Shown here piece after piece: positions 28,300 through 64,000 of a stretch of DNA of 64,000 nucleotides (position 1 is the first letter of the stretch; every line of letters begins with the position of its first letter). The notes under the pieces were generated by a model. The model ran no database searches and was not told the origin of the DNA. It saw nothing but the letters and a program-made list of their open reading frames with translations. The stretch lies in the NCBI RefSeq assembly GCF_910596095.1, contig NC_056550.1, positions 27,085,001-27,149,000 of the forward strand. Reading direction: 5' to 3'. The translations under genes and the position numbers were made by a program. The stretch comes from Thunnus maccoyii. Taxonomy: Eukaryota; Chordata; Actinopteri; Scombriformes; Scombridae.

Positions 28300-28330
<31 letters not shown>

Positions 28331-29678
28331 GGTTGCTGGTTGGGCTGTCGTTAAACATCTATAAAGTACATTCTTCATGCTGGAAGCTGCAGACAGTTTC
28401 AGTCACTACTGAGGAAACACGTCTCTCATAACGTGCAGGTGTCAGTTTAAGCAAAAATGCTCTCTGTGTAGATATAAAGGGCTCGTTCAAAGCCAACAAA
28501 AACACAACGGTTCTTATTTTCAGGTGATTATACACTAATTAAAACATACTTATGGATATTATACTCCATTTCTGCCAAGTGTGTTCTGTTAGATGATGCC
28601 ACTAAATCTCACACGCTGGACCTTTAAAGGAGCCACTCTTATAACAGCACCTCTCACATAGATGTTCTTTGAATAATGAGGAGAGGATGATCATTAATAG
28701 CCCATTGATATTGATTATACACTAATTAAAACATACTTATGGATATTATTTTTCGATTTCTGTTGATATTTTTGCTAATAGAGAGTGCTGATAGTAATAT
28801 ATAATTATATATCTTGTCCCTGCTGGTTTTCTATCCTACTTTCATGCTGACATGAAGGTGAAACAGGCATTCAATTACATTTTATGTTGCAGTGAAACGT
28901 CCACATAGACCTTGATGAACTCTGCAGGAAAACCCTGAACAGCTGTTAGTCTTCTTCCTCTTCTTCAGCTCTCGAGTTCACCAGAGTTGAACAAGAGAAA
29001 CTCACTGATACACTGATCGTGACTCACTCTGTTAAAACGAGCTGCCAAATTTCACTGTTTTAAAAGCGGGTGTGACCAGGCATCCTTTATATATATATAT
29101 ATATATATATTTCCTTTTTTTTGGCTACAACATCTGGTTTACATAGTTTAACAATACAATAATTTACCAGTGTGAGGTTCAGGTGCATCACGTCATCCTC
29201 TAAACACCGTCCAGCTCTCTACACTCTCCTCTGTTTAGTCCGTTTCCAGCTGTTTCTCATCAAATGTTTTCCAGCCTGAAATCTCGTAGTGAAAACTGAA
29301 CTCCTGACTCCTCTGCAGGTTTGTTGAAGGTCGTGTGCAGCTCAGAGTCTCAGTATCGGGTGTTTAGGTTGTGCTTAACTTCCTCTTCCTTCCTTCTCCG
29401 CAGTCTTCAGCCTCCAGGACCTCTGCTGCAGAGCCATCGTGTCGTGCACGCCGGTCCACCTCATCGACAAGCTCCCCCTGCCCGTCGCCATCAAGTCCCA
29501 CCTCAAGTCCTTCTCCATGGCCAACGGCATGAACGCCGTCATGATGCACGGACGCTCCTACTCGCTGGCCAACCCGGCCGGCGGCTCCAAAGGCAACAGC
29601 CTGAAGCGCTCCAAGTCCATCCGTCCACCGCAGAGCCCGCCGCAGAACTGCACCCGGAACAACTGTAAAATCTCCTAA
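6489..29678 (+). CDS. rab40c: RAB40C: Rab GTPase with SOCS box, CRL5 substrate receptor (6 coding exons)
   Basis: Joined exons 6489-6630, 16530-16590, 22108-22168, 22312-22389, 27131-27353 and 29404-29678 give a continuous 279-residue protein, against about 281 in mammals. All introns are GT/AG and the phases match. Residues 14-185 form the Rab G domain: P-loop GDSDVGKG (21-28), WDTSGQGRF (68-76) and GNRLH (125-129), where most Rabs have GKS/T, DTAGQ and NKxD. These departures are typical of the RAB40 group. Residues about 189-230 form the SOCS box: BC box SLQDLCC (191-197) for Elongin B/C and a Cul5-type LPLP. The tail ends CKIS, a prenylation-type C terminus. Known role: the family recruits substrates to Cullin-5 ubiquitin ligases at membranes and affects focal adhesions. 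RAB40B is the main alternative; the near-identity recalled with RAB40C favours the latter. Confidence 0.95.
8636..8762. repeat. Dispersed repeat, first of two intronic copies
   Basis: It shares CTTCCACAAAGTGGT, an A-rich CAGCAA(T/C)AATAAAAC stretch and CAACAAGCCGAA-like words with 16256-16390. Both lie in the same RAB40C intron and in the same orientation. No coding potential. Confidence 0.45.
9833..10577 (-). repeat. Long MITE-like element with TAGGGCTGCA end
   Basis: Read on the minus strand it starts TAGGGCTGCAGTCTGCTGGT. Both ends carry a related GTCGACTAAAAT / ATTTAGTCGGAC theme, for example TTGGTCGACTAAAATCG at 9857-9873 and GAATTTAGTCGGACGAG at 10520-10536, so the termini are imperfect inverted repeats. 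The interior is CpG-rich with no long frame. The family is common in teleosts (recognition from memory). It is intronic and probably inert. Confidence 0.5.
16256..16390. repeat. Dispersed repeat, second of two intronic copies
   Basis: This is the partner of 8636-8762. It ends about 140 bases before RAB40C coding exon 2. Nothing indicates a function. Confidence 0.45.
16530..16590 (+). CDS. rab40c: RAB40C coding exon 2
   Basis: It encodes the rest of Gly48 to the first two bases of Trp68 ([19 protein letters not shown]), covering switch I/effector loop and strand beta-2/3. The acceptor is TTTCTGTCCAG ending at 16529; the donor is GTAAGC at 16591. A (TC)n microsatellite at 16490-16515 lies 14 bases before the acceptor AG and probably serves as its pyrimidine tract. 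Confidence 0.92.
17325..18310 (+). repeat. Dispersed repeat E, copy with internal tandem duplication
   Basis: It is nearly identical in stretches to 47425-48165. Both start ACACAATATGTAATTTCAGC / CACAATATGTAATTTCAGC and share CAAGGGATCATGGGAGTTGT and GACGCCATTGTAGCGGACAA. Here a segment of about 234 bases starting ATCCGCAGAGGTCTCCTCCT is present twice (17487-17720 and 17721-17940). The 47 kb copy has it once. Same orientation. No protein is evident. Confidence 0.7.
18300..18650. repeat. Foldback family D fragment
   Basis: It has ATCAAGTAGATATCTTCCAA, AAATTCCCTCTTTGTGTTTC and a GAACTCGTCCTTTAA end, as in the complete copies at 35935-36580, 41120-41715 and 59175-59780. It directly follows repeat E. 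Confidence 0.5.
19868..20090. repeat. Foldback family D, left-arm fragment
   Basis: It contains GTCTTAAACCAGCAGTCAGG, GTAATCATTCCTCCTGTTCA and AAGCTTCTATGAGGCTTCAG, which match the arm of family D. An 84-codon frame across it is repeat sequence, not a gene. Confidence 0.55.
22108..22168 (+). CDS. rab40c: RAB40C coding exon 3
   Basis: It encodes the end of Trp68 to Gln88 ([20 protein letters not shown]), the switch II region. The acceptor CTCTGCAG ends at 22107 behind a (CTT/CTC)n tract at 22049-22103; the donor is GTCAGA at 22169. The following intron is only 143 bases. Phase is correct on both sides. Confidence 0.92.
22312..22389 (+). CDS. rab40c: RAB40C coding exon 4
   Basis: It encodes residues 89-114 ([20 protein letters not shown] then IREIDE), beta-4 and alpha-3 of the G domain. 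It is exactly 26 codons. Acceptor TTCTTCAG ends at 22311; donor GTGAGT at 22390. A (GATG)n microsatellite lies at 22401-22434, just inside the next intron. Confidence 0.93.
22390..27130 (+). other. RAB40C intron after coding exon 4 (4.7 kb)
   Basis: No gene is seen. It holds (GATG)n 22401-22434, (AC)n 22548-22579, a dispersed fish repeat at about 22640-22870 (phrases AGACCAGTCAGTGCTCTGTA and GTCCCGGTCAGGATACAG), a compound TG minisatellite at 23664-23873, family C copies at 24180-24370, 25812-26060 and 26755-26960, and a unique CpG-rich block at about 26110-26400. Frames across the TG tract are low-complexity and not genes. Confidence 0.75.
23664..23873. repeat. Compound (TG)n minisatellite
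   Basis: Blocks of TG dinucleotides are separated by CGCCTG, a 60-base unique insert and repeated TCTGCCTG spacers near 23776-23783, 23824-23830 and 23844-23850. The spacers suggest expansion of a (TG)n-TCTGCCTG unit. Intronic. Confidence 0.85.
27131..27353 (+). CDS. rab40c: RAB40C coding exon 5
   Basis: It encodes residues 115-188 and the first base of Val189. It contains the guanine-specificity motif GNRLH (125-129) in place of NKxD, the [19 protein letters not shown] segment, and the alpha-5 region up to WRPNR. Acceptor CCTACCCAG ends at 27130; donor GTGAGA at 27354. It is GC-rich relative to the flanking introns. Confidence 0.93.
27354..29403 (+). other. RAB40C last intron (2.05 kb)
   Basis: No gene is seen. 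It holds AT-rich sequence with (AT)n runs at 28302-28324 and 29089-29111. A 40-base segment, including ATTATACACTAATTAAAACA, is present twice, near 28526-28562 and 28712-28748. The acceptor at 29401-29403 is CAG after TTCCTTCTCCG. Confidence 0.7.
29404..29678 (+). CDS. rab40c: RAB40C last coding exon (SOCS box and C terminus)
   Basis: It encodes residues 189-279. It begins [12 protein letters not shown], the Elongin-binding BC box, then [20 protein letters not shown] with the Cullin-5 box. A basic, proline- and serine-rich tail follows ([19 protein letters not shown]) and the protein ends NCKIS before TAA at 29676. The Ser/Gly stretch (NPAGGSKG) is slightly shorter than recalled for mammals, which accounts for 279 against 281 residues. 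Confidence 0.95.
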
Positions 29679-35934: not shown

Positions 35935-36580
35935 TTCAAGTGTCTTAAACCAAACAGTCAGTGAAACATGTTCTTCTTGCTGTAATCATTCCTCCTGTTC
36001 ATACTGACCATTAGAAGATCCCTTCATAATGAGCTTACAATGGAAGTGATGGAGGACAAAATGTGTTTAAAAGTTTATCTGAAGCTAATATGAAGCTTCA
36101 GCGTCCAAATGAGTCAAATCAAGTAGATATCTTTCAACATTACAGTCTTTTTAGTGCCAAAGTCCCTCTTTTTGTTACTATACTTCCACCTGCAGCTCAA
36201 CAGGGAAACACTGTCCGAGGAAACACAAAGAGGGAATTTGATGCTAAAACGACTGTAAATGTGTCAGATATCCACTTGATATGACTAACTCAGACTGCTG
36301 AAGCTGAATAGAAGCTTCACACAGACTTTTAAATGACTGTGTGGACACACTGTGGATTTTATCCTCCATCACTTCTATTGAAAACACATTTGAAGGATCT
36401 TTTAATCCCCCCCCCCCCCCCTTTTAATCGGAGGACAGACAGCATTATTTCCAGTAAAGTGTGTCCTTGACAGAATGATGGACGTGTAGGTTTGTTTTCA
36501 GCCTCTTTCACTGTTCATTTAGGATCCTGACTGTTGTTTTAAGACACACTTGAAAAAACTGTGGAACTGTCCTTTAACGG
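35935..36580. repeat. Foldback family D, near-complete copy
   Basis: The left arm contains GCTGTAATCATTCCTCCTGT and AATGGAAGTGATGGAGGACA; the right arm carries the complements, such as TCCTCCATCACTTCTATTG. The centre has TGCAGCTCAACAGGGAAACA. A poly(C) run at about 36408-36421 replaces part of the right arm. Complete relatives are at 41120-41715 and 59175-59780. Confidence 0.65.
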
Positions 36581-40505: not shown

Positions 40506-43500
40506 GTTTGTGGATCACTGGCATGCTTTCATTATTTAGCCACGACCCGGCGCCGGCTATTCACTGGGTCGCTATCTGATAGCGATCTATTTTTTTTTCC
40601 TAGGACGGCGAAGTTACGACCCGCCCTACTCTGCCTCTGATTGGCTAGTACTCGTCGCCTTTGTAGGTTGGGTTGGTTAGGATCAGGGTAAGAAGATCAG
40701 GATCAGCCAATCAGAGGCAGAGTAGGGCGGGTGGTATCTTCACTATCCTAGGAAAAAATATCGCGTCCCGTCAACGCCCACTTTCCTGGAGAAAATGAAG
40801 TGCGACACAAATATTTAGTGAGTTAGCGACGTCATCGGCTTTTATTAATATGACAGGACATTTAATACTTTGGTAGCTAAAGTTGGTAAATGTTAAAGCA
40901 GGTTCATTCTCAGGTTTACAAGCCGCACAGGTCCTTCCGGGGTTGGATACAACCTGCCTACTGGAGAGAAGCCAAACTCTAGTGAAATATCTAGAAATGT
41001 AAAGTTTGCTTCTATATCTGTAAACGTCTGTATATGAAAGGCCACGATTTAAGATATATTCTCTATTTGAAATGTATGGTTTAATATCTGGTATATAATA
41101 TATCCACCAAGCAGCATGACATTAAAGGACGGGTTCAGTTTTTCAAGTTTGTCTTAAACCAACAGTCAGAAGCCCAAATGAACATTAAAGCTATTCTTCT
41201 TGCTGTAATCATTCCTCTTACTGACCATTAGAAGATCCCTTCATAATGACCTTACAATGGAAGTGATGGAGGACAAAATCCACAGTCCTCCTTCTGTGCA
41301 AAAAATGTATTTAAAAGTTAATCTGAAGCTAATATGAAGCTTCAGCGTCCAAATGAGTCAAATCAAGTAGATATCTTTCAACGTTACAGTCTTTTTAGTG
41401 CCAAAGTTCCTCTTTTTGTTACTATACTTCCACCTGCAGCTCAACAGGGAAACACAAAGAGGGAATTTGATGCTAAAAAGACTGTAAATGTGTCAGATAT
41501 CCACTTGATATGACTAACTCAGACTGCTGAAGCTGAATAGAAGCTTCACACAGACTTTTAAATGACTGTGTGGACACACTGTGGATTTTGGCCTCCATCA
41601 CTAACATTGAAAGCACATTTGAAGGATCTTTTAATATCCAGTATGAACAGGAGGAATGATTACAGCGAGGAAAACCTCTCACTGTTACTATGGACACCTG
41701 ACTGAACATGCTTTGTGACACAGTGTGCATCCCTTTGTGCTGCATCTCTTTCTCTGATATTTCAGAAAGTTTTAAAGTCATGACACTGAGGTGGATGAAA
41801 CGCAAACTAATCAGCAGATTGATCATTAATGAAAATAACTAATAGTTGAAATCAGAATCAGGTTTATTGCTCTGTAAAGTTTGCACATATAAGGACTTTG
41901 TCTTAGTGCATAACAGTCAAAAATACACAAAATGAAGTAATCCTAAATAATATAATAAAGGAAAAAAAGAAATTTACAATAAAAAATATGTCAAATATAA
42001 TCTCAGTGAGAAGAGCTGCTGCTGGCTTCAATTTTAAACTGAAGAGAATAAAATACAAAATATCAACCAGGAATGTTCAGATGTTCATAGTGTAAATAGT
42101 ATATACAGTATGCAATTAATGAGGATAATAACATGACAAGTTGCATCAACGTAACTCGTCGCATTAGTCAGTCTCTCCAGGAAACTGCGATTTTGCGATT
42201 GCATTAATCAACGCTAATACAAGACGTCTTCTTAAAGTCTGTAAGTTTGCAATTTCACTAAATTGCTGCAACTTTTCCACATGAAACGTCCAAATCAACC
42301 GACGCTTGTGATTTATTTTCTTTTTTTTATAAAACTTTGAAAGTGAAAATGGTTCTCCTGTTAAAAATAAATTCAATAATTAGCAGTGAAATAGTTGTTT
42401 CTGTGATGTGCAGTAATGATTGAAGCCATAACATGAGACTCTTCATGAGTCGTATTTAAAAAAAAAAAAATCACATTCCCAATTCCTGCAATTTTACCTC
42501 CAAAAACATCGCAAATTGTATCACAATTTTTGAGACATTTGAAACATTTTTGGCTGCAAAAATTACAAAAAAACCTTGAAATCCTGGAGGGACGACGTAG
42601 AATAAACAAGAAAACATTTTTACATTCGATGTTCTGGTTAATATGATTAACCAGCATCATTTCTTTTGAGTTCATAAAAGTTTCTTCTGTTTTTTTCCTG
42701 CAGACCAGCCGCAGCTGGCTCTCTCCGTCTGGGATGAAGACTTCTTCTCCGAGCAGCAGGAGGAGGAAGTGGAGGACGAGGAGGAGGAGGATGAGGGGCG
42801 CTGTGAGCAGGAGTGGAGCTCCGGTGTGGACCAGGAGCCTCCGCAGACGGAGAAGAACCAGGAGGAGCTCCCCAGCGGTCAGGAGGAGGAGGAGCAGCTT
42901 CAGGACATAGAGGAAGACAGCACCATCAGGTTCATCTTCACTCCTCCGTACGTGAAGAACGAGCTCGACCAGCTGCAGTCCGAATACCAGAAAGGAGGAG
43001 AAGGAGATCCTCTGCCGAGCACCTCGGCGGAGCAGAGCCAGACGAAGGAGGAGGGCGACGACGACGACGCCGCGGCGTCCTCCAGCTGCTCCGCGGCCGA
43101 ACACGACGACAGCGACGAGGAGTGGAGGGGCAGCGCTGGATCTCAGAGCGACGACAGCGACGGCAAGTGGAAGAAGAGGAAGACGTCTCGTTTATCGGCG
43201 GACGCGAAGCTGCATCCCGCCAAGAAAGCCAAACCGCGCATCTGCTGCAAAGTGTGCGGGAAAGCTTTTCACGCCAACGTCTCTCTGGTGAATCACATGG
43301 AGGTTCACCCGAAGGACGTCTGCGGCGTCTGCGGGGAACGCTTCGACACGGAGGAGAGCTTCCAGGCTCACGTGAAGACGCACGTGAAAGCCGGGATCTG
43401 CAGCGTTTGCGGGAAATGTTTCGGCACCTCGAGCGCTTTGGAGACGCACATGAGGATCCACACGGGAGAGAAACCGTTCAACTGCAGCGAGTGCGGGAAA

Positions 43501-44223
43501 TCCTTCAACTGCCGCCACAACATGATGCGACACATCCGGATACACACGGGGGAGAAGCCGTATCCCTGCAGCGTCTGCGGGAAATGCTTCAACGACTACT
43601 CCACGTGGAAACGCCACCTGCTGGTTCACGTGAACAAGAAGAACCTCGACCCGAACAACGCGAACGAGAACGAGAACGGCAACGACGGCGAGAAGAAGAT
43701 CAAGACGTCGTATCCGAAAAAGCAGCAGACGCGGACCATATGCGAAGTGTGCGGGAAGATGTTTCACTCCGTGGTTTCGCTGGTGAATCACGCCAAAAGT
43801 CACGCGACGGACCTGTGCGGCGTTTGCGGGACGCATTTCGACTCGGAGGAAAGTTTAAAACTCCACCTGAAAACTCACAAAAACGGGAAGGTGTGCGAAG
43901 TGTGCGGGAAGTGCTTCGACAGTCAGGGGAACCTGGAGATGCACATGAGGATCCACACGGGGGAAAAGCCCTTCCTGTGCAGCGAGTGCGGGAAATCCTT
44001 CAACTGCCGCCACAACATGATGCGACACATGAGGACGCACACGGGGGAGAAGCCGTACCTGTGCAACGTGTGCGGCCGGTGTTTCAGCGACCACTCCACC
44101 CTGAAGCAGCACAGCGGCACGCACACGGGGGAGAAACCGCACCGCTGCGAGGTCTGCGGCAAAGGTTTCCACCGAAAGACGTACGTGAGGCTTCACATGA
44201 AGAGTCACACCACGGAGAAATGA
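40310..44223 (+). CDS. C2H2 zinc-finger protein, 11 fingers, two coding exons
   Basis: Exons 40310-40505 and 42704-44223 join in phase to a 571-residue protein. The ATG (A at -3) starts MSSVLRLRELVNERLSAAAE, a helical, charged N-terminal module common at the start of fish-specific C2H2 genes, running to residue 65. Residues 67-240 are strongly acidic and Ser-rich (EEEVEDEEEEDE, DDDDAAASSS), then a basic stretch. Eleven CX2C...HX3H fingers span about 247-567. Canonical TGEKP linkers join fingers 3-4-5 and 8-9-10-11. Short non-canonical linkers join 1-2-3 and 6-7-8. A 37-residue linker (375-411) separates fingers 5 and 6. It is likely a nuclear DNA-binding regulator. No KRAB, SCAN or BTB domain is seen. 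The orthologue and target are not identifiable. Confidence 0.9.
40619..40732. repeat. Inverted pair of 28-base CCAAT-containing repeats
   Basis: The right arm 40705-40732 reads AGCCAATCAGAGGCAGAGTA then GGGCGGGT. The left arm 40619-40646 is its exact reverse complement. The spacer is 58 bases. A third copy, in the right-arm orientation, is at 37444-37471. There the preceding 40 bases (ACGGCAGGTACCAGTACC) also resemble the complement of this spacer. ATTGG/CCAAT and GGGCGGG words make each arm look like an NF-Y plus GC-box site. Confidence 0.75.
41120..41715. repeat. Foldback family D, complete copy inside the zinc-finger intron
   Basis: It starts ATTAAAGGACGGGTTCAG and TTGTCTTAAACCAACAGTCA. 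The centre is CCACCTGCAGCTCAACAGGG and the right arm ends ATTACAGCGAGGAAAACCTC. The halves are reverse complements. A minus-strand frame of 117 codons falls within it and is not a gene. Confidence 0.65.
42704..44223 (+). CDS. Zinc-finger gene coding exon 2 (all 11 fingers)
   Basis: It encodes residues 66-571, from DQPQLALSVWDEDFFSEQQE to HMKSHTTEK and TGA at 44221. Fingers 1-5 and 6-10 are paralogous in order: SLVNH, EES, a third finger followed by GEKPF, CRHNMMRH, and ST(W/L)K(R/Q)H. Finger 11 is the extra C-terminal one. The exon is GC-rich and CpG-rich compared with its flanks. Very long open frames on both strands (for example 42813-44249 in another + frame) are by-products of the finger codon pattern. 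Confidence 0.92.
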
Positions 44224-52110: not shown

Positions 52111-52467
52111 CATCCTCATCTTCATTACTTGGACCAAATAAAGTTTACAAGCTGCTTTATTCCATGGAAATGGAAACCTATGACAGGAATGTGATTCTGG
52201 TTTATTCTCTCAGTTGTCAAACCTATTTCTTCTTGATAGTGATGTCTTGATGGAATAGATGGTGTTTCCCACTAATATGCAGCTCATCTGTCACTGTATA
52301 TGAGCAACATTATTATTATTATATTTATTTTTTTTTAGATTTAAGGCCATAAAACCTCTGATGCCACTATCTGGCAGGACAGAACAGCACTGCTGTGGAG
52401 GCCGCACCCGTGTACAGCATTCAAAACATTCCTTATCTGACCAAAGTCATAAAACATTGCAAGAGGA

Positions 52468-52540
52468 GAAACGAAACTGAAAGAAGACGTCATGCACATT
52501 TATGGTATTTCCTCCGAAAGCCTGAAGCTGTTTATATAAA
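52468..52540 (+). promoter_or_regulatory. Gig2-like unit 1 promoter: IRF-type element and TATA box
   Basis: GAAACGAAACTGAAAG at 52468-52483 contains GAAACTGAAA, a match to the IRF/ISRE core GAAANNGAAA. TTTATATAAA at 52531-52540 is a good TATA box about 50 bases further on, and the 5' exon follows at TATA-appropriate distance. Interferon induction is known for fish Gig2 genes; here it is inferred from these motifs. Confidence 0.7.
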
Positions 52541-52562
52541 CTGCTTCAAAGCGAACATTCAT

Positions 52563-52607
52563 TTACAATCTGCCTGCACTCAGGGACCAACACAGGACTG
52601 GACAAAG
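52563..52607 (+). other. Gig2-like gene A 5' non-coding exon
   Basis: The sequence ATCTGCCTGCACTCAGGGAC is followed by a donor (AAAG/GTACGTG, GT at 52608). The same block recurs at 57342-57387 and 62430-62475. The start is placed from the TATA box and is approximate. It has no ATG, so translation begins in the next exon. Confidence 0.6.
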
Positions 52608-54846
52608 GTACGTGAAACACAAACTTTGATGAGAAACGTTTTCTTGTTAAAACGCTTTTTTTTGTTATAACGAGAAATGTGAAGGCAACTTTTTTTTTTT
52701 ACTAAGGGTTGCAGTTCTGTGCTGCTGGTATTATAAATAATGGGAAAAGACATTTTAACAAGGTCAGAGTTGGAAAACTGTGCAGCAATCCTTTTTACCA
52801 AACAGAACCATCGTCTATAAATACTGTGTCCACAGGAGAATTAAGAGTATTTTTACGGTCACCAATCTATAAGAGCTACAAGCAGTTTAGAGTCTCCTCT
52901 TTATCTGTTTATCATGACTTTTGGACCCAATAAACACAACACCTGAATTTTAGTCTGACATGCTCACAGTGACAATATTAATATGCTGATGTTTAGCAGG
53001 CAAAGTGTTAGAAAAATTAAAAATTGAAAAAAAACTGATGGTGGCGTTAACGATGAAATGTTAAATGAAAGTTTCACAATCTTTCAAGTGTGTCTATAAA
53101 CAGCAGTCGGGTGTCCGTATGAGCAGTGAAAGAGGTTTTCCGCGCTGTAATCATTCCTCCTGTTGATACTGGCTGTTAAATGAGCCTTCAAATGTGGTTT
53201 CAATGGAAGTGATGGAGGCCAAAATCCACAGTGTGTCCACACAGTCATTTAAAAGTCTCTGTGAAGCTTATATGAGGCTTCAGCAGTCTGAGTTAGTCAT
53301 ATCAAGTGGATATCTGACACATTTACAGTCTTTTTAGCATCAAATTCCCTCTTTGTCAAACAAACGCTTGATAACTAAAAGGTGTGAACACATCACTTCC
53401 ATTTTAACTTCTCTTCACTGGCTCCCAGTAACGAAGAATTGATTTTAAAATTTGACTTGTTGTTTTTTAAAGCTATGAACGTCGTTGACATGCTCTCTGA
53501 ATACACACCAGACAGACTCCTGAGATCATCAAGTACAGGTCTCCTCACTATACTGAGAATTAATCTCTAAATCAGCTTTTATCACAAGCTTTAAGTTAGG
53601 TTTAAAGTGTGTAGTTAACGGGTAAAACCTTCATTTTAGAATCAGTATTATTATTGTTATTCCTTTTTAATAATACTTACTTTAATACTCCTTACTTTAT
53701 AATTTTATATGTTGTCTTATATGTTTATATATATATATTGTTAATATAATGTTATATGTTTTTGGCATGTACACTCTTTATTCATATTAGCTTCAGATAA
53801 ACTTTTAAATACATTTTTGCACAGAAGGAGGAATGATTACAGCAAGAAAAACAGGTTTCAATGTTCATTTGGGCTCCTGAATAAGTAATAATAGTAGTAA
53901 AAATAAATACAAATAATAACAATAAAATACAACTTCTACATTTTTGGGCCTATAGAATATGCGACTTCTAAATGTTGTCAGATGAATTCTGATAATAAAA
54001 CATTTTGCGTAGATTGTGATGTCAAAATAAATGTATTCACTGGTTTACAGCTGCTTCTTTTCCACTGATTGTGTGTGAAAAATACTATTTGGGCCAGTGT
54101 GCATCACGCGATGGACCCGTAATTTCTAATTACACAGTTTAGCCACTATATCAAATTGGCTTCACAGCCCAGTGCTGATCTTGGGGCCTTGGGCTGTACT
54201 TAGGCACAGCAGGGGCTATGAGCTAAATGCTAACACCAGAATGCTAGCATGCTAATGTTTAGAAGGTATAATGTTTACCATGTTCACCAGCTTAGTTTGG
54301 TGTGGTATAGCAAAACACACCAAAGTACTAATTAGCACTAAACACAAAGTACAGCTAAGGCTGATGGGAATGTCAGTTTTGTAGGTATTTGGTCATAAAC
54401 CAGAGTACGAAATTTTGTAGCAATCCATTCAATAATTGTTGAGATCCTCATGGTGGGGCTAGAGGAAAAGTACTCTGTGTTTGGTGCTAATTAGCAAATG
54501 TTACCATGCAAACACGCTAAACTACCCGTTAAACATCAGCATGTTAGCATTGACACTGTAAGCATGTTAGCATGCTGACATTAGCATTTAGCTCTCTCTT
54601 AGTTTCATTTCACTTTTGATAAAGCTAGGCTAACAGTTTTCCTCTGCTTGTTCAAGTCTTTTTGCTCTAAGCTAGGCTCCTCAGGAAGAATAGCACATCA
54701 AATGAACCTTAAATATTAGTAAATGTCTCTGAATCATGTCCTAATTGTCTTGTTTCATTCCTGTATCATTTTTAATTGCAGTGATGTTTAGTTTACTTGC
54801 GTGGAATAATCTGAAGTCTTTACACTTATCAATCTCTTTCCTACAG
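52608..54846 (+). other. Gig2-like gene A intron (2.24 kb)
   Basis: No gene. Contents: a conserved unit segment 52830-52980, a family D foldback fragment 53075-53355, an L2-type LINE piece 53356-53786, the rest of the foldback 53787-53885, and a GCTAGCATGCTAA-rich dispersed repeat at about 54170-54600 that also occurs in unit 2 (60175-60640). The acceptor TTTCCTACAG ends at 54846. Confidence 0.65.
53356..53786 (+). pseudogene. L2-type LINE reverse transcriptase fragment
   Basis: A frame at about 53387-53572 encodes a stretch including NFSSLAPSNEELILKFDLLF and KAMNVVDMLSEYTPDRLLRS. It resembles the C-terminal part of L2/Rex-type LINE reverse transcriptases (LTSLHWLPVxxRIDFKIL...FKALNGLAPxYL). 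It is only about 60 residues and 5' truncated. It is present in unit 1 and absent from unit 2, where the family D foldback is intact at this point. CTCTTT occurs at both junctions. Confidence 0.6.
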
Positions 54847-54862
54847 TGATACTGAGACCAAC

Positions 54863-55453
54863 ATGTACCAGTGGGCTGCAGATGACTTTACTCTGCCTGC
54901 GGGGATGTTTTTCCAGAGCTTCTCAGCACCAGTTAATGGTAAAACGTTTTCCATGTACCACGGCACCAGCAGAGCAAACGCTGCAGCCATCCTGGCCTCA
55001 GGTTTTCGCCGTTCTCTAGACGGGATGCTCGGCCCAGGCGTCTACCTCACCAGAGATCTGAAGAAAGCTAGGTTCTATCCCGTTGGTCACCCTGAGCATG
55101 ACAAAGTCATCATTACGGTCTTGGTCAACGTGGGAAGAGTGATCACCATCGATTGTAAGGGCCACCCACGTCAGAAGAACTGGCGCGACCCCAGATGCGG
55201 CAAGGTGTACGACACCGCCTGGATACCTCCTTGGAGTGGAATGATGAAGAGCAATTTCGAGACGCATTGTGTCTGGGATCCCAATCGAATCAAAATCCTT
55301 AATATCATCGAACCACTTCCAGTTCAACCTGGATATGGATATGGATATGGATATGGACATGGACATGGATATGGACATGGACATGGACATGGATATGGAT
55401 ATGGACATGGATATGGTTATGGGTATGGATATGGTGCACAAGGCTACATGTGA
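54863..55453 (+). CDS. Gig2-like PARP-fold protein A with Gly-Tyr/Gly-His tail
   Basis: A single coding exon (exon from 54847) of 196 residues. The ATG has A at -3 and lies 16 bases after the acceptor. The core (1-150) resembles the fish Gig2 (GCRV-induced gene 2) family: MYHGTSRANAAAILASGF (31-48), GMLGPGVYLTRDLKKA (54-69), GHPRQKNWRD (100-109), YDTAWIPP (116-123) and CVWDPNRIKIL (136-146). His33 and Tyr61 correspond to the first two residues of the PARP H-Y-E triad; the third is unclear (Glu133 or Thr134). No signal peptide or membrane segment, so probably cytosolic. Residues 157-196 are a low-complexity GYGYGHGH tail encoded by a GGATAT-type microsatellite. Known family role: interferon-induced antiviral response in fish. 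Enzymatic activity is unproven. Confidence 0.85.
   Translation: MYQWAADDFTLPAGMFFQSFSAPVNGKTFSMYHGTSRANAAAILASGFRRSLDGMLGPGVYLTRDLKKARFYPVGHPEHDKVIITVLVNVGRVITIDCKGHPRQKNWRDPRCGKVYDTAWIPPWSGMMKSNFETHCVWDPNRIKILNIIEPLPVQPGYGYGYGYGHGHGYGHGHGHGYGYGHGYGYGYGYGAQGYM
55331..55432. repeat. Coding hexanucleotide repeat (GGATAT/GGACAT)n
   Basis: About 17 units of GGATAT or GGACAT (late units GGTTAT and GGGTAT) encode the Gly-Tyr/Gly-His tail of gene A. A decayed remnant is at about 61367-61411 in the 3' UTR of gene B. Confidence 0.85.
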
Positions 55454-55523
55454 GATAATTTAATATATTTTATAAAAAGGAAATGATACTTGAATTTTGT
55501 TACTCTATCATTGTAACCTGGAA

Positions 55524-55529
55524 AATAAA
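55524..55529 (+). terminator. Poly(A) signal of Gig2-like gene A
   Basis: AATAAA about 70 bases after the stop, in GGAAAATAAATCCTCAATAA. The same context is conserved in unit 2 at 61497-61502. Confidence 0.6.
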
Positions 55530-56159
55530 TCCTCAATAATTTTATATCTTAAATGGCTGTGTGATGGGTATATTTTTATGTTGAGGTATTCACCTTTGAA
55601 ACATCTGCTGCCATCTGAATACAATGGAGGTGAAAAGAATTTTGTTTATTATGTGTGGAGCATTAAAAACACATTTGGAAATATTTAAAACAACTTGCAT
55701 TTCCAGAAACAGTTACTCTAAATAATCCACCTCACTGTAGGTTTTCACATAAATAGTGTCTATTTTAACAATAACAAAACATATCCACCACTGTCACCTC
55801 CTAAAACAAAATATTAAAATAGTCCAGCACATAACGCCTTGTAAAACCATGACATGTAATTTTTACATTTACTTTTTTGTACGGATTAAACAAACAACAT
55901 TAATTAACCCTAGCCTAGTTGCTGGCTTCATATTTATCATACATACGTCATTTTTAATGGTCTTAAATCAGAGATTTTGAACTCCTCGTCTAAGTTTGTA
56001 ATCAATAACATCCCCATAACTAATGTGCAATCTACACGATGGTGTTCTGCTTCAAGAATCCTTATCTTGGTAACCTCATATCAAGGCCATAACCACCAAA
56101 ATGACCGGGAGTATCGGTATACTAGGCAACACTGGTCACTTGATCAACACTAAGGTAGC

Positions 56160-56500
56160 CACTATGTTATATTATACTATGGTTTATCCAAGCGGCAATC
56201 TCCAGGGCTGAAAAATGAAGCCAACTCGGAAGTGACAAAAACTGCAGTTCATCGAATGGCCACTTGAGGCTCCATAAGCGAGTCAATACCGACTTTATAG
56301 CAGAAATAAACATGTTTAAAGTCTGGTACAAAAAACAGTCTTGGTCTCTGTAGCTAATTTCCCCGTTCAACTGTACTAGGTGTGAATTTTTGAATAACTC
56401 ACCCATTTAAATTTTATTAAGGCTTAAAGTCATGCATAATTTAGGGGAGGGCCGCTTTAAGTGACAGGTGGGTGCCATCACAGGCAAGTTGCTACCACAG
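56160..56500 (-). repeat. Dispersed element related to the nested insert at 33319-33727
   Basis: On the minus strand it contains AAACATGTTTATTTCTGCTA, ATTGACTCGCTTATGGAGCC and GAACTGCAGTTTTTGTCACT, which parallel the insert in the family A foldback. It lies in the extra 3' segment of unit 1 and is absent from unit 2. Class unknown. Confidence 0.5.
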
Positions 56501-57248
56501 CAACAATATTGGTTAGGTAACATAACCATAACCCTAGATTCACAGTATAGGTGTAGCCGTAGTTGTCGCTATTTCAGTGTGTTTTCAGTTCATGAAAGTT
56601 AATTATAACATTATGATCACGTAAAAAAGTATTCAGCATTTGGTTGTACTAAAAGATCCTCTAAGGAGTCGGATGTTCAGTTTTTTCCAGTAAGTATATT
56701 TTGTTTTAATGGTTTTAAGCCTGTTTTTTGCTAGCAAAAATTAGCATTAGCATTAGCACTATCACAGTTAACCACAGGCTGTAATGCACCGTGCTAACTA
56801 AGCTCCTGCTCCTCCCCCTCCTTATTATTATTACCTGGACCAAATAAAGTTTACAAGCTGCTTTATGTCATGGAAATAAAAGCAGCTGCTCCAGCAGAAT
56901 GGAAACCTAAGCAAATATGACAGGAATGTAATCTGGTATGTTCTCTCACTTGTCAAACCCATTTCTTCTTGAGAGTGATGTTTTTGTTTAAATGTTTCCC
57001 ACTGTTATGCAGCTCATCTGTCACTGTATATGAGCAACTGGGCGACATTATTATTTTTTTATTTTTTCTTGTCTGAAAAACATAAGCAGGGAGGCTGGAA
57101 AGTCATTCCCTGCTCAGATTTAGGGCCCTAAAGGCTCTGATGCCACTATCTGGCAGCACAGAACACATCATTGCTGTGGTGGTCAAACCTGTTTAGAGCA
57201 TTCAAAACAATTGTTATCTGACAACAGTCATTAAACAGTGCAAGAGGA

Positions 57249-57320
57249 GAAACGAAACTGAAGAGGACATCATGCAAATTCGTGTCCTTGCCTCCCAAAG
57301 CCTGACACTCTTTATATAGG
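57249..57320 (+). promoter_or_regulatory. Gig2-like unit 2 promoter: IRF-type element and TATA box
   Basis: GAAACGAAACTGAAG at 57249-57263 differs from unit 1 in the last A of the second GAAA, so the core reads GAAACTGAAG. The TATA box is TTTATATAGG at 57311-57320. The spacing of about 50 bases is the same as in unit 1. Confidence 0.65.
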
Positions 57321-57341
57321 CCTCTTCCAAGCGAACATTCA

Positions 57342-57387
57342 TTTCCAATCTGCCTGCACTCAGGGACCAACAACAGACTGGAGACAG
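57342..57387 (+). other. Gig2-like gene B 5' non-coding exon
   Basis: The same block as unit 1, ending GACTGGAGACAG/GTACGTG with the GT at 57388. The start is approximate. Confidence 0.6.
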
Positions 57388-57469
57388 GTACGTGAAACAC
57401 AAACTTTGTTTTTTTCACTAGAGTTTTTACAGAAAGTACAAAAAATACCGTGCAACTTAAGCTTGTAGA

Positions 57470-58326
57470 TACAGTGCGTATACAGTCTCATCACTCCAAA
57501 TGACTTTGTTCCAGAAGTTGTGAGTCTTGTCTAGGTGCTGTTTGGCATATTGTAAGTGGACTGTTTTGTGGCGTTGGTAGCAAGTAAAGTCAGAGCAGCC
57601 CTGGATGAAATGTGCAGAAGCTCATTGACTATTTATACAAAAACACTAATTACAATCAAACAAGTTACAGGTGTGGAAACTTACCCTTCATAGCCATTTA
57701 AACCTGTGTGTGTATATTATCAGGCCAAACTTTCAAGTGTATGTAAACTTTTGATCAGGGCCATTCTGTTATCATTATGATTTAAAAAGGGCTCAAACAA
57801 TTATGTATGAATAAATGGCTTCACCTGACCACTGTCCCTAAATAAAACTAAACTTTTAAGCATGATCAGTCATATTTTCCAAAAAATGGTCAATATTTCA
57901 TAAATTCTGCCAGGCTATGTAAACTTCTGGGCACAACTGTAACTTTCTATCTTCTATATAACCGTTTTGATATGTTAAAAACTGCATCACTAAAATGAAA
58001 AGTCATCATAACAAGATGCATAATAGAAAAAATATTAAAGAATCAAGAAAGGTGTTTGAGATGTAACACAGTATCTGTATCTCATAAAAATGGGATGTGC
58101 GCGAATGTTTTAATGAATCGATCAAGTCTAACTTGAAATTCTGCTCTTACTGAGCAACCAGGATGTGGTTTTTATTGGTATGCATGGCAGGTATTTAAAA
58201 AGGGCTCAAACAATTATGTAAGAATAAATGGCTTCACCTGACCACTGTCCCCCAGTCATATTTTCCAAAAAATGGTCAATATTTTATAAATTCTGCCAGG
58301 CAATGTAAACTTCTGGGCACAACTGT
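57470..58326 (-). pseudogene. Tc1/mariner remnant with duplicated right end (unit 2)
   Basis: On the minus strand 57483-57557 encodes a transposase-like QHLDKTHNFWNKVIWSDET. The right inverted repeat AAATTCTGCCAGGCTATGTA...GGGCACAACTG plus TA occurs twice, ending at 57939 and 58324. The left inverted repeat is deleted, and most of the transposase is gone. Inactive. Confidence 0.75.
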
Positions 58327-58580
58327 AACTTTCTATCTTCTATATAACATTTTTGATACAATGTTTCATAAAATTGCCTCATTAAAATTGAATGTTTTTT
58401 ATCATTTTAACATGAAAAACAAGTCATCGTAACAAGATGCATAATAGAAAAAATACTGAAGAATCAAGAAAGGTGTTTGAGGTGAAACATTGTATCTGTA
58501 TCTCATAAAAATAGGATGTTCATGAAGGTCTGAATAAATCATTCAAGTCTTACTGCTCTTACTGAGCAACCAGGATGTGG
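57780..58580 (+). repeat. Tandem duplication of about 414 bases in unit 2 intron
   Basis: TTAAAAAGGGCTCAAACAAT starts each half (57782 and 58196), and GAGCAACCAGGATGTGGTTT ends each (near 58153 and 58563). The first half keeps 29 bases (TAAATAAAACTAAACTTTTA and on) missing from the second. Unit 3 has the segment once (63125-63560). Confidence 0.7.
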
Positions 58581-59174
58581 TTTTTATTGGTAGGCAGACA
58601 TTCTCCGTCTCTATCGAGGCAAAACCAAGCCCATCGGATGTATTTGTCATGAGAAGAGCACTCAATATTATGGGAGAACTTTATAATTATAATGAGAAAG
58701 TAGTTCTTAATGAGGAAATCACATTTTCTCATTATGATGGGAAACATTTTCTCGTTGAAAAGGAAGATGCTTTTTTTGTTAGAACGGGAAAAGTGAAGGA
58801 AACTTTTTTTTTTTTACTAAGGGTTGCAATTCTGTGCTGCTGTAATTATGCATAATGGGAAACTGTGAAGCAGTCCTTTTTACCATACAGAACCATCACC
58901 TATAAATACTGTGTCCACAGGAGAATTAGGAGTTTTTTTTACACTAACATGAAATAATATTACAGACCACCAATCTATAAGAGCTACAAGCAGTTTAGAG
59001 TCTCCTCTTTATCTGTGTATCATGACTTTTGGACCCAGTAAACACAACACCTGAATTTTAGTCTGACATGCTCACAGTGACAATATTAATATGCTGATGT
59101 TTAGCAGGCAAAGTATTAGAAAAATTAAAAATTGAAAAAACTGACGGTGGCGTTAGATGAAACGTTAAATGACA

Positions 59175-59780
59175 GTTTCTCAATTTTTCAAGTGTGTCTT
59201 AAAAACAACAGTTATGTGTCCATAGTAACAGTGAAAGAGGTTTTCCTCGCTATAATCATTCCTCCTGTTCATACTGGATATTAAAAGATCCTTCAAACGT
59301 GCTTTCAATGTAAGTGATGGAGGCCAAAATCCACCGTTTTGTCATTTAAAAGTCTCTGTGAAGTTTATATGAGGCTTCATCAGTCTGAGTTAGTCATATC
59401 AAGTGGATATCTGACACATTTACAGTCTTTTTAGCATCAAATTCCCTCTTTGTGTTTCCTCGGACAGTGTTTCCCTGTTGAGCTGCAGGTGGAAGTATAG
59501 TAACAAAAAGAGGGACTTTGGCAGTAAAAAAGACTGTAACATTGAAAGATATCTACTTGATTTGACTCATTTGGACGCTGAAGCTTCATATTAGCTTCAG
59601 ATAAACTTTTAAACACATTTTTTGCACAGAAGGAGGACTGTGGATTTTGTCCTCCATCACTTCCATTGTAAGGTCATTATGAAGGGATCCTCTAATGGTC
59701 AGTATGAACAGGAGGAATGATTACAGCAAGAAAAACAGGCTTCACTGTTCATTTGGGCTCCTGACTGTTGTTCTTTTATT
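59175..59780. repeat. Foldback family D, complete copy inside unit 2
   Basis: It starts TTTTTCAAGTGTGTCTTAAA, has the centre CCCTGTTGAGCTGCAGGTGG and the right arm ATGAACAGGAGGAATGATTA. It is intact here, whereas the equivalent in unit 1 is interrupted by a LINE piece. Confidence 0.65.
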
Positions 59781-60897
59781 GGTATTTTCCATTATACAAA
59801 AATATAGTTATCTTGACATGTGGATACATATGCGGTCTGTTATCATCATCCTCCCACATCCTCTAATCCAGGGTCACACAAATCACAGAAAGAGAAAGAA
59901 TGAGCACATATAAAAAGAGAGAAAAAAATAATAATAGTAATAATATTAGTAAGAATATATAAAAATAATAACAATAAAATACAACTTATGCGTGTTTAGG
60001 CCCATAGAGTATGTGACTTCCAAATGTTGTTGGATGAATTCTGATAATGGAACAAGTCATTTTGCAGGGGCTGTGATGTCAAAAAAAAAAAAAAAATCCA
60101 CTGTTTTACAGCTGCTTCTATGGACCCAGAATTCCTAATAACACAATTTAGCCACTATATCAAACTGGCTTCACAGCACAGTGCTGATCTTGGGGCCTTG
60201 GGCTGTACTTAGGCACAGCAGGGGCTATGAGCTAAATGCTAACACCAGAATGCTAGCATGCTAATGTTTAGAGGGTATTATGTTTACCATGTTCACCAGC
60301 TTAGTTTGGTGTGGTATAGCAAAACACACCAAAGTGCTAATTAGCACTAAACACAAGGTACAGCTAAGGCAGATGGGAATGTCAGTTTTGTAGGTATTTG
60401 GTCATAAACTAAAGTACAAAATTTTGTAGCAATCCATTTAATAATTGTCGACACATTTCACTAAAAACCAAAAATGTTGACCTCATCGTGGCACTAAAGG
60501 AAAAGCACTTTGTGTTTGGTGCTAATTAGCAAATGTTACCATGCAAACACGCTAAACTACCCGTTAAACATCAGCATGTTAGCATTGACACTGTGAGCAT
60601 GTTAGCATGCTGACATTAGCATTTAGCTCTCAGTTTCATTTCACTATTGATAAAGCTAGGCTAACAGTTTTCCTCTGCTTGTTCCAGTCTTTTTGTGCGA
60701 AGCTAGGCTAAACAGATCCTCTAGAAGAACAACACATCAAATTAACCTCAAATATTACTACATGTCTCTGAATCATGTCCTAGTTGTCTTGTTTCATCCC
60801 TGTATTATTTTTATTTGCAGTATAGTTTATTTGCATGAAATCCTTTTGAAGTTTTTACACTTATGAATCTCTTTCCTACAGTGATACTGAGACCAAC

Positions 60898-61347
60898 ATG
60901 TACCAGTGGGCTGCAGATGACTTTACTCTGCCTGCGGGGATGTTTTTCCAGAGCTTCTCAGCACCAGTTTATGGTAAAACTTTTGAAATGTACCACGGCA
61001 CCAGCAGAGCAAATGCTGCAGCCATCCTGGCCTCAGGTTTTCACCGTTCTCTAGACGGGATGCTCGGCCCAGGCGTCTACCTCAGCAGAGATCTGAAGAA
61101 AGCTATGTTCTATCCCGTTGGTCACCCTGAGCATGACAAAGTCGTCATTAAGGTCTCGGTCAACGTGGGGAAAGTCATCACTATCGAACGTAAGGGCCAC
61201 CCACGTCAGAAGAACTGGCGCGACCCCAAATACGGCGAGGTGTACGACACCGCCTGGATACCTCCTTGGAGTGGAATGGTGAAGAGCAATTTCGAGACGC
61301 ATTGTGTCTGGGATCCCAATCGAATCAAAATCCTTAGTATCGTGTAG
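60898..61347 (+). CDS. Gig2-like PARP-fold protein B, short form without tail
   Basis: A single coding exon (from 60882) of 149 residues. It starts with the same MYQWAADDFTLPAGMFFQSF and keeps MYHGTSRANAAAILASGF, GMLGPGVYLSRDLKKA, YDTAWIPPWSG and CVWDPNRIKIL. His33 and Tyr61 are retained. Relative to gene A, two extra bases appear right after the IKIL(S/N)I codons and the frame meets TAG at 61345. The Gly-Tyr tail is lost, although its remnant (GGATAT... and GCACAAGGCTACATG) is still readable downstream as 3' UTR. The core domain is complete, so the protein is probably functional. Most substitutions are between the PARP-like motifs (for example TVLVNVGRVITIDCK against KVSVNVGKVITIERK). Confidence 0.83.
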   Translation: MYQWAADDFTLPAGMFFQSFSAPVYGKTFEMYHGTSRANAAAILASGFHRSLDGMLGPGVYLSRDLKKAMFYPVGHPEHDKVVIKVSVNVGKVITIERKGHPRQKNWRDPKYGEVYDTAWIPPWSGMVKSNFETHCVWDPNRIKILSIV

Positions 61348-61496
61348 AACCATGTCCAGTCCAACCTGGATGGATATTGATATTGATATGGTTATGGGTA
61401 TGGATATGGTGCACAAGGCTACATGTGAGATATTTTAATATATTTGTATAAAAAGGAAATTATATTTGCATTTTGTTACTCCATTGTAACCTGGAA

Positions 61497-61502
61497 AATA
61501 AA
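61497..61502 (+). terminator. Poly(A) signal of Gig2-like gene B
   Basis: AATAAA in the conserved context GGAAAATAAATCCTGAATAA, 150 bases after the TAG. Confidence 0.6.
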
Positions 61503-62340
61503 TCCTGAATAATTTTATATCTTAAATGGCTGTGTGATGGGTATGTTTTTATTTTGAGATATTCACCTCTGAAACATCTGCTGCCATCTGAATACAATGG
61601 AGGTGAAAAGAATTTTGTTTATTATGTGTGGAGCATTAAAAACACATTTGGAAATATTTAAAACAACTTGCATTTCCAGAAACAGTTACTCTAAATAATC
61701 CACCTCGCTGTAGGTTTTCACATAAATAGTGTCTATTTTAACAATTTGTGGCTGTTATACCAAAAGGTTAACATAACATATCCACCACTGTCACCTCCTA
61801 AAACAAAATATTAAAATAGTCCAGCACATAACGCCTTGTAAAACCATGACATGTCATTTTTACATTTGTAGCCTGGTTGCTGGCTTCATATTTATCATAC
61901 ACACTTCATCTTTAATGGTCTTAAATCTGGGATTTTTAACTCCTAGTCTAAATCTTAACTACTGCTCCTCCCCTCCTTATCTTTATTACCTGGACCAAAT
62001 AAAGTTTACAAGCTGCTTTATGTCATGGAAATGAAAAGCTTACAGCTTCTCCAGCAGAATGAAAACCTAAGCAAATATGACACGAATGTAATCTGGTGTG
62101 TTCTCTCAGTTGTCAAACTTATTTCTTCTTGATAGTGATGTTTTTGTCAAAACGTTTCCCACTGTTATGCAGCTCATCTGTTACTCATCTGTATATGAGC
62201 ATCTGGGCAACAGTTTTATCTTTTTCTTTTTTTCTTGGGGCAAACATAACCGAGGAGGCCTGGAATTCCCTGCTCAGATTTAAAGCCCTAAAACCTCTGA
62301 TGCTATTAGCTGTCAGGACAGAACACATCACTGCTGTGGT

Positions 62341-62408
62341 AAAACTGAAAGAAGACATCATGCACAATTTGGGGATTTCCTCCTGAGGCCTGACGCTCTT
62401 TATACAGG
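62341..62408 (+). promoter_or_regulatory. Gig2-like unit 3 promoter: weakened IRF element, kappaB-like site, weaker TATA
   Basis: A deletion has removed the first GAAA, leaving AAAACTGAAAG (62341-62351). GGGGATTTCC at 62371-62380 fits the NF-kappaB consensus GGGRNWYYCC and is not present in units 1 or 2. The TATA position is TTTATACAGG (62399-62408). Confidence 0.55.
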
Positions 62409-62429
62409 CCACCTCTCAGCGAACATTCA

Positions 62430-62475
62430 TTTCCAATCTGCCTGCACTCGGGGACCAACAACAGACTGGAGACAG
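62430..62475 (+). other. Gig2-like gene C 5' non-coding exon
   Basis: ATCTGCCTGCACTCGGGGAC and GACTGGAGACAG/GTACGTG, with the GT donor at 62476. This is the evidence that a third gene continues to the right. Confidence 0.6.
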
Positions 62476-62643
62476 GTACGTGAAACACACACTTTGTTTT
62501 TTTCACTAGAGTTTTTACAGAAAGTACAAAAAATACCGTGCAACTTAAGCTTGTAGATACAGTGCGTACATGGTTATATACGGCAATGTAATGCTGCCAC
62601 CATGACAAAAAAAGGGCTCAGTTATAATATATAAAGTAATATA

Positions 62644-63284
62644 CAGCTGTGCTCATAAGTTTACATACCCTGGCAGGATTTACAAGATATGTACCACTCA
62701 TAGTGTTTATGGTTGTGATCATAAAGTTCAATTTTGATCTCATCACTCCAAATGACCATGTTCCAGAAGTTTTGAGGCTTATCTAGGTGCTGTTTGGCAT
62801 TTTCTGGCAACTCGACCGTGTTGCCCCATTTTCAAATCTTCAGATATCTTTTTATATCCTTTTTCCTGATTTATAACGTTCAACTATGTTTTCTCGCAGG
62901 TCCTTTTACAGTTCTTTTGCTTTCCCCATGGGTCAGTATCCAGTAAAGCCCTGGATGAAATGTGCAGAAACTCATTGACTATTTATACAAAGTCACTAAT
63001 TACAATAAAACAAGTTATCCTTCATAGCCATTTAAACCTGTGTGTGTATATTATCAGGCCAAACATTCAAGTGTATGTAAACTTTTGATCAGGGCCATTT
63101 GGGATGATTTCTGTTATCATTATGATTTAAAAAAGGCTCAAACAATTAAGTAACAATAAATGGCTTCACCTGACCACTGTCCTCAAATAAAAGAAAAAAT
63201 TTAAGCATGATCAGTCATATTTTCCAAAAAACGGTCAATATTTTATAAATTCTGCCAGGCTATGTAAACTTCTGGGCACAACTG
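62644..63284 (-). pseudogene. Tc1/mariner remnant with both inverted repeats (unit 3)
   Basis: TA at 62642-62643 precedes CAGCTGTGCTCATAAGTTTA. The other end is AACTTCTGGGCACAACTG followed by TA at 63285. The ends are about 38-base imperfect inverted repeats. On the minus strand 62734-62815 encodes KQHLDKPQNFWNMVIWSDE, a transposase fragment. At 641 bases it is a deleted, inactive copy and the parent form of the damaged one in unit 2. Confidence 0.8.
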
Positions 63285-64000
63285 TAACTTTCTATCTTCT
63301 ATATAACATTTTTTGATACAATGTGTCATAAAATTGCCTCATTAAAATTGAATGTTTTTTATCATTTTAACATGAAAAACAAGTCATCGTAACAAGATGC
63401 ATAATAGAAAAAATACTAAAGAATCAAGAAAGGTGTTTGAGGTGTAACATTGTATCTGTATCTCATAAAAATAGGATGTTCATGAAGGTCTGAATAAATC
63501 ATTCAAGTCTTACTGCTCTTACTGAGCAACCAGGATGTGGTTTTTATTGGTAGGCAGACACCAACCAAGCCCATCGGATGTATTTGTCATGAGAAAAGCA
63601 CCTAAAATTATGAGAGACCTTGATCAATATAATGAGAAAGTAGTTCTTAATCAGGAAATCACATTCTATCATTATGATGAGTTTTTTTGTTAAAAAGGAA
63701 GATGCTTTCTTTGTTATAACGAGAAATGTGAAGGCAACCTTTTTTTTTTACTAAGGGTTGCAATTCTGTCCTGCTGTAATTATAAATAATGGGAAAAGAT
63801 ATTATAATAAGATCAGAGTTGAAAAACTGTGAAGCAGTCCTTTTTACCAAACAGAACCATTGTCTATAAATACTGTGCCCACAGGAGAATTAAGAGTATT
63901 TTTAAGGTCACCAATCTATAAGAGCTACAAGCAGTTTAGAGTCTCCTCTTTATCTGTTTATCATGACTTTTGGACCCAGTAAACACAATACCTGAATTTT

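Follow-up and report, generated by a model that had tools for sequence, protein, structure and literature searches.

A Gig2 gene array in Thunnus maccoyii whose four PARP-like domains lack the catalytic glutamate

Introduction

Gig2 genes are interferon-induced, PARP-like genes of non-amniotes. The locus described here raises the question whether a tandem array of such genes, in which the catalytic glutamate (Glu) of the PARP fold is absent, reflects a remodelled pocket for nicotinamide adenine dinucleotide (NAD) or the decay of redundant copies. The DNA under study, termed the window, is a stretch of 64,000 nucleotides of Thunnus maccoyii contig NC_056550.1 (C18:27085001-27149000), which holds two complete Gig2 genes and, at its right end, the front of a third. 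This end cuts an array of four head-to-tail Gig2 genes on the plus strand of C18, all of which have open frames. In family and in location the array is ordinary, both being known already; what is new is a variant in which none of the four genes has the catalytic Glu. As a whole explanation, to which we give an even chance, the array would constitute a set of interferon-induced ADP-ribosyltransferases with a remodelled NAD pocket, perhaps directed toward mono-ADP-ribosylation. Viruses are known to activate genes of this family in other fish, an antiviral role of Gig2 proteins has been reported, and the portions consulted of the literature on Gig2 with ADP-ribosylation or selection (PMC3617106, PMC9122973, PMC9503650, PMC5525251) contain no enzyme-activity or selection test of Gig2.

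The PARP-like core and its missing glutamate

The genes considered are the following, with extended coordinates continuing the window numbering past 64000 and percentages giving the protein match to the gene 1 core.

54863..55453, plus strand: Gig2 gene 1 coding sequence, 196 residues; PARP-like core and Gly/Tyr/His tail; H33, Y61, T134
60898..61347, plus strand: Gig2 gene 2 coding sequence, 149 residues; intact core, tail lost; T134
Extended 66876-67382, plus strand: gene 3 coding sequence (C18:27151876), open for 168 residues from ATG, 70%
Extended 77082-77600, plus strand: gene 4 coding sequence (C18:27162082), open, 172 residues from ATG, 68%
C18:27312990-27313430, minus strand: gene 5, 150 kb beyond gene 4, 169 residues from ATG, 66%

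A search of the genome (782 Mb, 54 contigs) with the gene 1 core as query yielded 11 matches, eight on C18 and three on contig C9 (44-48%). A sequence-only reading of the window had proposed a third gene from its promoter and 5' exon and had advised looking for a coding exon beyond 64 kb; extension to the right indeed reveals this open exon, 2,876 bp past the edge, followed by a fourth unit. Three partial Gig2 pieces with stop codons lie between genes 4 and 5 (C18 27262186, 27299666 and 27308381). Within the window, tblastn with the first 120 homologues, taking the best match per 300-base bin, gave no other Gig2 remains: apart from the two coding exons, no match had E <0.02.

Assignment of the array to a Gig2-type, interferon-linked and PARP-like family, as held by the earlier reading, is supported. 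The homology search gave 126 homologues, including Epinephelus Gig2, Scomber Gig2e, Danio Gig2l and a crucian carp interferon-inducible protein, and genes 1, 2 and 3 score 27.5, 31 and 29.1 bits against PF00644 (cut-off 26.7), with gene 4 falling under the cut-off at 24.3 bits. The triad residues H33 and Y61 are found in genes 1 and 2, their His and Tyr counterparts in genes 3-5, and both residues together with the adjoining glycines are kept in the array. At the position of the PARP catalytic Glu (residue 134), which was assigned from structure-alignment end points and not from side-chain geometry, genes 1-4 carry T, T, M and V, respectively. Gene 5 has E at this position, as do the three C9 genes, which read EED or QED.

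Within the family, Glu occupies the catalytic place in 313/342 motif instances (240 sequences, both window genes included) and in all 128 instances among 120 Gig2p proteins. Other residues also occur there, such as Q (7 instances) and G (5), which indicates that loss of Glu is recurrent in the Gig2 family. Sequencing error is an unlikely source of the substitutions, because near-identical proteins from other records, namely P0001 (146/149 to gene 2), P0005 (156/159 to gene 3) and P0004 (171/172 to gene 4), carry the same T, M and V. When 317 domains are placed in a tree, with P0005 and P0004 standing for genes 3 and 4, the array sequences form one clade with a Scomber scombrus protein that carries V (local support 0.955). 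In view of this shared clade, the loss of Glu may be older than the window species.

Loss of a nicotinamide-binding serine was considered as well and dropped, since residue 70 (S in 102/122 rows; R or M here) is not the counterpart of S904. With the PARP1 residues taken as Y896, S904 and Y907, counting from Tyr61 to Tyr72 assigns S904 to Ala69, a position occupied by Ala in 122/122 rows.

Architecture of the array

The units start at about 52107 (unit 1), in the interval of roughly 56450-56813 (unit 2) and at about 61959 (unit 3). Apart from the coding sequences, their features, beginning with the interferon-stimulated response element (ISRE), are as follows.

52467..52478, plus strand: unit 1 ISRE (AGAAACGAAACT), match to the published consensus
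52533..52539, plus strand: unit 1 TATA box TATATAA, from sequence
52565..52607, plus strand: unit 1 non-coding exon 1, inferred start, donor GTACGTGA, from sequence
52608..54846, plus strand: unit 1 intron, containing part of a dispersed palindromic repeat
55524..55529, plus strand: unit 1 poly(A) signal AATAAA
57248..57259, plus strand: unit 2 ISRE, consensus match
57313..57319, plus strand: unit 2 TATA box TATATAG
57345..57387, plus strand: unit 2 non-coding exon 1, inferred start
57388..60881, plus strand: unit 2 intron, with a transposon-like segment common to units 2, 3 and 4
61497..61502, plus strand: unit 2 poly(A) signal AATAAA
62341..62351, plus strand: unit 3 ISRE remnant (AAAACTGAAAG), left by a deletion of some 70 bp
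62401..62407, plus strand: unit 3 altered TATA box, TATACAG
62433..62475, plus strand: unit 3 non-coding exon 1, inferred start, intact donor
62476..64000, plus strand: unit 3 intron, cut at the window edge; exon 2 from extended 66860

A common donor, GTACGTG, follows exon 1 in four units, the last exonic bases being 52607, 57387 and 62475 in units 1, 2 and 3. The acceptor TTTCCTACAG and the AATAAA signal are also kept in four units, both lying outside the window for units 3 and 4, and the coding exon begins with ...GAGACCAACATG (outside the window in unit 3). These conserved splice signals suggest a gene plan of a non-coding exon 1 followed by one coding exon. The unit order proposed earlier, running from an IRF-type element and TATA box to the poly(A) signal, thus stands with regard to donor, acceptor and AATAAA, whereas the promoter of unit 3 is incomplete, comprising half an ISRE and TATACAG. 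The palindromic (foldback) repeat, which measures about 575 bp at full length, is dispersed in Gig2 introns and elsewhere, with window copies at 59201-59775, 53082-53356, 41141-41704, 35959-36406 and 19872-20069.

Genes 1 and 2 are identical at 423/450 nucleotides and 132/149 residues (88.6%), so that the identity of about 89% given previously for the two intact coding exons is borne out at the protein level. In DNA, coding exons 1 and 2 diverge by 5.6%, and these from 3 or 4 by 14-16%. The protein of gene 3 shares only about 70% of its residues with its neighbours (86% identity in DNA), and the 5' part of unit 3 matches units 1 and 2 at 75-100%, depending on the block. Duplication of one gene by the assembly would likewise produce similar units arranged head to tail, yet this explanation is practically out of the question given the divergence of the coding exons, the different insertions held by the introns and the existence of near-identical proteins to genes 2, 3 and 4 in other records. 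Hence, the units are read as a real array, in agreement with the earlier view.

The history of the copies appears to be mosaic. The coding-exon tree groups genes 1 and 2 and leaves the order of genes 3, 4 and 5 unsettled. On the contrary, the transposon-like intron segment, which we take to be Tc1-like, is present in units 2, 3 and 4 and was not found in unit 1. Moreover, the best tree varies along the coding exon, pairing gene 3 with gene 4 over codons 1-50 and with gene 5 over codons 51-100. The conflicting groupings of these sequences point to some exchange (gene conversion) between units. The stronger notion that unit 3 combines a neighbour-like intron with a foreign exon was dropped, since its exon is 86% identical in DNA to gene 1 and the contrast is mild.

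Promoters and predicted interferon response

Matches to the ISRE consensus, as given in an excerpt of PMC3296712, number 8 in the window versus 3.9 expected (standard deviation 1.9), two of them where the promoters of units 1 and 2 lie (52467 and 57248). With 0.006 matches expected in 200 bp on a single strand, these matches are convincing because of their position relative to the TATA box and exon 1. Unit 4 has further matches (extended 70743 and 70748), and another, at C18:27315025, immediately precedes a stretch resembling exon 1 and lies some 1.6 kb upstream of the coding match for gene 5. Two other patterns are not enriched in the window, the short core GAAANNGAAA being found 8 times (6.9 expected) and GAAACNGAAACT with at most two mismatches 38 times (32.8 expected).

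The promoter of unit 3 is devoid of an ISRE consensus match, the deletion of about 70 bp having removed the 5' half, and a complete ISRE set across the array was dropped as a candidate accordingly. Its remnant matches the unit 1 15-mer at 10/15 positions, a score of at least 10 being attained by 95/255 control tiles. Since units 2 and 3 score alike on the short core GAAANNGAAA (7/8), some IRF binding at unit 3 may be possible. For zebrafish DreI, a two-base ISRE mutation was described to abolish induction by poly(I:C), interferon and spring viraemia of carp virus (excerpt of PMC3296712). By analogy, the half-ISRE of unit 3 predicts poor induction of gene 3.

Divergence of the C-terminal tails

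A short GxGY(M/K/R)-like motif terminates 43/120 homologues; genes 3, 4 and 5 end in GARGYK, GARGYK and GAGGYM, respectively. The tail of gene 1 is expanded by a coding hexamer repeat, which raises the proportion of Gly and Tyr in the last 30 residues to 73%, compared with at most 37% in 120 homologues:

55330..55434, plus strand: hexanucleotide TGGATA/TGGACA repeat, 17.5 copies, encoding the GYGYGHG tail

The tail of gene 2 was lost via a local frame change ending in TAG, and the old ending is still visible downstream. Speculatively, such tail exchange may alter protein location. In addition, 14/120 homologues (P0021, P0038, P0098 and 11 others) feature a hydrophobic, membrane-anchor-like C-terminal stretch. 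Among the PARPs, PARP16 is a membrane-anchored mono-ADP-ribosyltransferase (mono-ART; excerpt of PMC12377720).

Possible signatures of selection

Over the core, the ten pairwise comparisons among genes 1-5 give ratios of nonsynonymous to synonymous substitution (w, NG86) from 0.72 to 1.49, with synonymous divergences (dS) of 0.065-0.23. Among the site models, M2a beats M1a under 15/15 topologies, twice the log-likelihood difference (2dlnL) amounting to 15.3 to 33.4. None of 71 null simulations on the best tree reaches 15.3, their maximum being 12.2 and their 95% point 6.0. About a third of the sites have w near 0 in M2a. Residues 30, 52, 53, 98, 134 and 147 exceed a posterior of 0.95 whichever of the three leading topologies is used, the values for residue 134 being 0.99, 0.97 and 0.95. 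Residues 52 and 53 sit between the first helix and the Tyr61 strand, presumably the region in which PARPs carry the D-loop. Taken together, the tests favour positive selection on the five C18 genes, as judged from their sequences.

Gene conversion between paralogues could mimic such a signal by shuffling old differences and thereby misleading the site models. The segment-dependent trees, as well as the pairing of genes 1 and 2 in the coding exons as opposed to units 2, 3 and 4 in the introns, agree with this explanation. It nevertheless appears improbable, for M2a is favoured under each topology, several gene pairs have w >1, and separate best trees for each third of the gene still give 2dlnL values of 3.7, 14.4 and 2.7, which sum to 20.8 on 6 degrees of freedom and stem mostly from codons 51-100.

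As a control, pairs of Gig2p genes of the same genome gave w of 0.34, 0.41 and 1.11. The pairs with low w are older (dS 0.43-0.52, gene and PARP part; about 0.52 over the gene), while the third is recent (dS 0.034, w 1.11).

Proposed mechanism and its alternatives

According to the mechanism envisaged here, sensing of virus or interferon would lead to binding of IRF/ISGF3 to the ISRE beside the TATA box, an element present in units 1, 2 and 4 and upstream of gene 5. Subsequently, the non-coding exon 1 would be spliced to the single coding exon, as the splice signals suggest, to yield a protein whose predicted fold is that of a minimal PARP-type ADP-ribosyltransferase domain. In this putative enzyme the NAD-orienting His and Tyr are kept, and the four array genes carry T, T, M or V where the catalytic Glu would be. 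Single ADP-ribose units would probably be transferred to a viral or host protein, as in the mono-ARTs with an H-Y-hydrophobic triad. The repeated change of NAD pocket and C-terminal tail under positive selection would then represent conflict with viral antagonists or targets.

Because the array retains His and Tyr, mono-ADP-ribosylation is preferred over inactivity with modest confidence, by analogy. The pocket differences among the copies, including the catalytic Glu, hint at an arms race with viruses. In its most specific form, the reading implies that in one lineage (the window species, perhaps also Scomber) the whole Gig2 cluster gave up Glu, the NAD pocket being the surface of virus conflict, and that the proteins became mono-ADP-ribosyltransferases or NAD-binding decoys whose chemistry was switched under positive selection and whose tails are exchangeable. 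We consider this form rather unlikely, albeit conceivable.

Several points weigh against remodelling under selection. The site models are our own implementation, were applied to five C18 genes of one genome and report naive posteriors; M0 gives w of 1.27, which does not differ significantly from 1 (2dlnL 1.5). Only codons 51-100 are significant alone, and the third holding residue 134 is not, with M0 w of about 1. The few sequences and the gene conversion between them weaken the case further, and the low w of the Gig2p control may reflect its greater age. Frame survival was rejected as proof of selection, for 62 random changes leave 16% of frames free of stop codons, and open frames alone are thus weak evidence. 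As to chemistry, mono-ARTs typically have I, L or Y at the third triad position, where the array has T, M or V, so that the pocket could be inactive. Finally, tail loss in gene 2 and loss of promoter parts in unit 3 are compatible with decay, too.

Such decay is the core of a birth-and-death explanation, in which redundant copies drift under relaxed constraint and the losses of Glu, tail and promoter elements are its early stages. This alternative is doubtful, though it deserves serious consideration. It would account for w near 1 for genes 1 versus 2 and for the recent Gig2p pair, for the three stop-containing fragments nearby on C18, and for the tail loss of gene 2 and the altered ISRE and TATA box of unit 3; moreover, Gig2 pseudogenes are also tabulated at other fish loci (PMC9122973, Table 1). 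It is opposed by the open cores of all four array genes and gene 5, the splice signals kept in four units, the third of sites with w near 0, the retention of His33, Tyr61 and their adjoining glycines, and the recurrence of T, M and V in P0001, P0005 and P0004.

If the Gig2 family constitutes small ADP-ribosyltransferases, this genome offers a natural series, in which gene 5 with Glu stands beside four genes without it that vary in replacement, tail and promoter, and which allows a direct test of whether Gig2 works through catalysis. Remodelling of the NAD pocket, if true, would extend to fish a conflict between PARPs and viruses like that described in mammals.

Locus setting and further Gig2 genes

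Left of the array, the window contains two flanking genes, assigned by domain type:

27068..29678, plus strand: RAB40-type gene, left synteny marker; Ras exon within 27068-27421 (Pfam Ras 4.5e-10)
Within 29379-29678, plus strand: SOCS-box exon of the RAB40-type gene (Pfam SOCS_box 9.1e-10)
42670..44223, plus strand: C2H2 zinc-finger gene, large exon (stop-to-stop frame; zf-H2C2_2 2.9e-51), in the place of ZG57 in the known locus

To the right, XYLT-type exons (Xylo_C) are located at C18:27360844-27365169. The resulting order of RAB40 type, zinc finger, Gig2 and XYLT type matches the published order RAB40C-ZG57-Gig2-XYLT1, which is tabulated for barramundi and yellow perch and occurs in several, not all, fish (PMC9122973, Table 1), and a Gig2 array at this place, the locus familiar from other percomorph fish, is therefore ordinary in kind. 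The window also holds a 231-bp tandem repeat of 1.9 copies with 89% matches (17485-17923).

The three Gig2p-type genes on C9 (22752272-22759801) encode a PARP-like domain followed by a Cys motif (CxxC...CxxC....C), which recurs in 111/120 Gig2p proteins. The nearest full-length Gig2p proteins are those of Pampus (85%) and Scomber (83%). The name transposase zinc ribbon, which was considered for the Cys-rich tail, found no support in Pfam or PDB, and the tail is left unnamed.

Comparison with known systems

In the excerpts consulted, the known fish Gig2 family (PMC3617106; zebrafish DreI, PMC3296712; flounder and halibut loci, PMC9122973) shares with the array the PARP-like core, tandem clusters, a non-coding exon 1 with one coding exon, an ISRE promoter and the order RAB40C-ZG57-Gig2-XYLT1. 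The array differs from it by four genes without Glu, the hexamer-repeat tail of gene 1, the tailless gene 2 and a unit 3 without intact ISRE.

As summarized in part of PMC9189837, mono-ARTs typically carry an H-Y-I/L/Y triad, while two members described as inactive, PARP9 (Q-Y-T) and PARP13 (Y-Y-V), are without the His. The array resembles the H-Y-hydrophobic mono-ART PARPs of that source, such as PARP10 and PARP14, in the PARP fold, the kept His and Tyr and an uncharged residue in place of Glu; in contrast to these enzymes, its third residue is T, M or V, and accessory domains are absent. With PARP9 and PARP13/ZAP (PMC9189837, same part) it has in common a Thr or Val as third triad residue, the PARP fold and an antiviral link, whereas the array proteins retain the triad His. 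Mammalian PARPs under positive selection are the subject of PMC4038475, a paper without any mention of Gig2; like the array, they are fast-evolving PARP genes linked to conflict with viruses.

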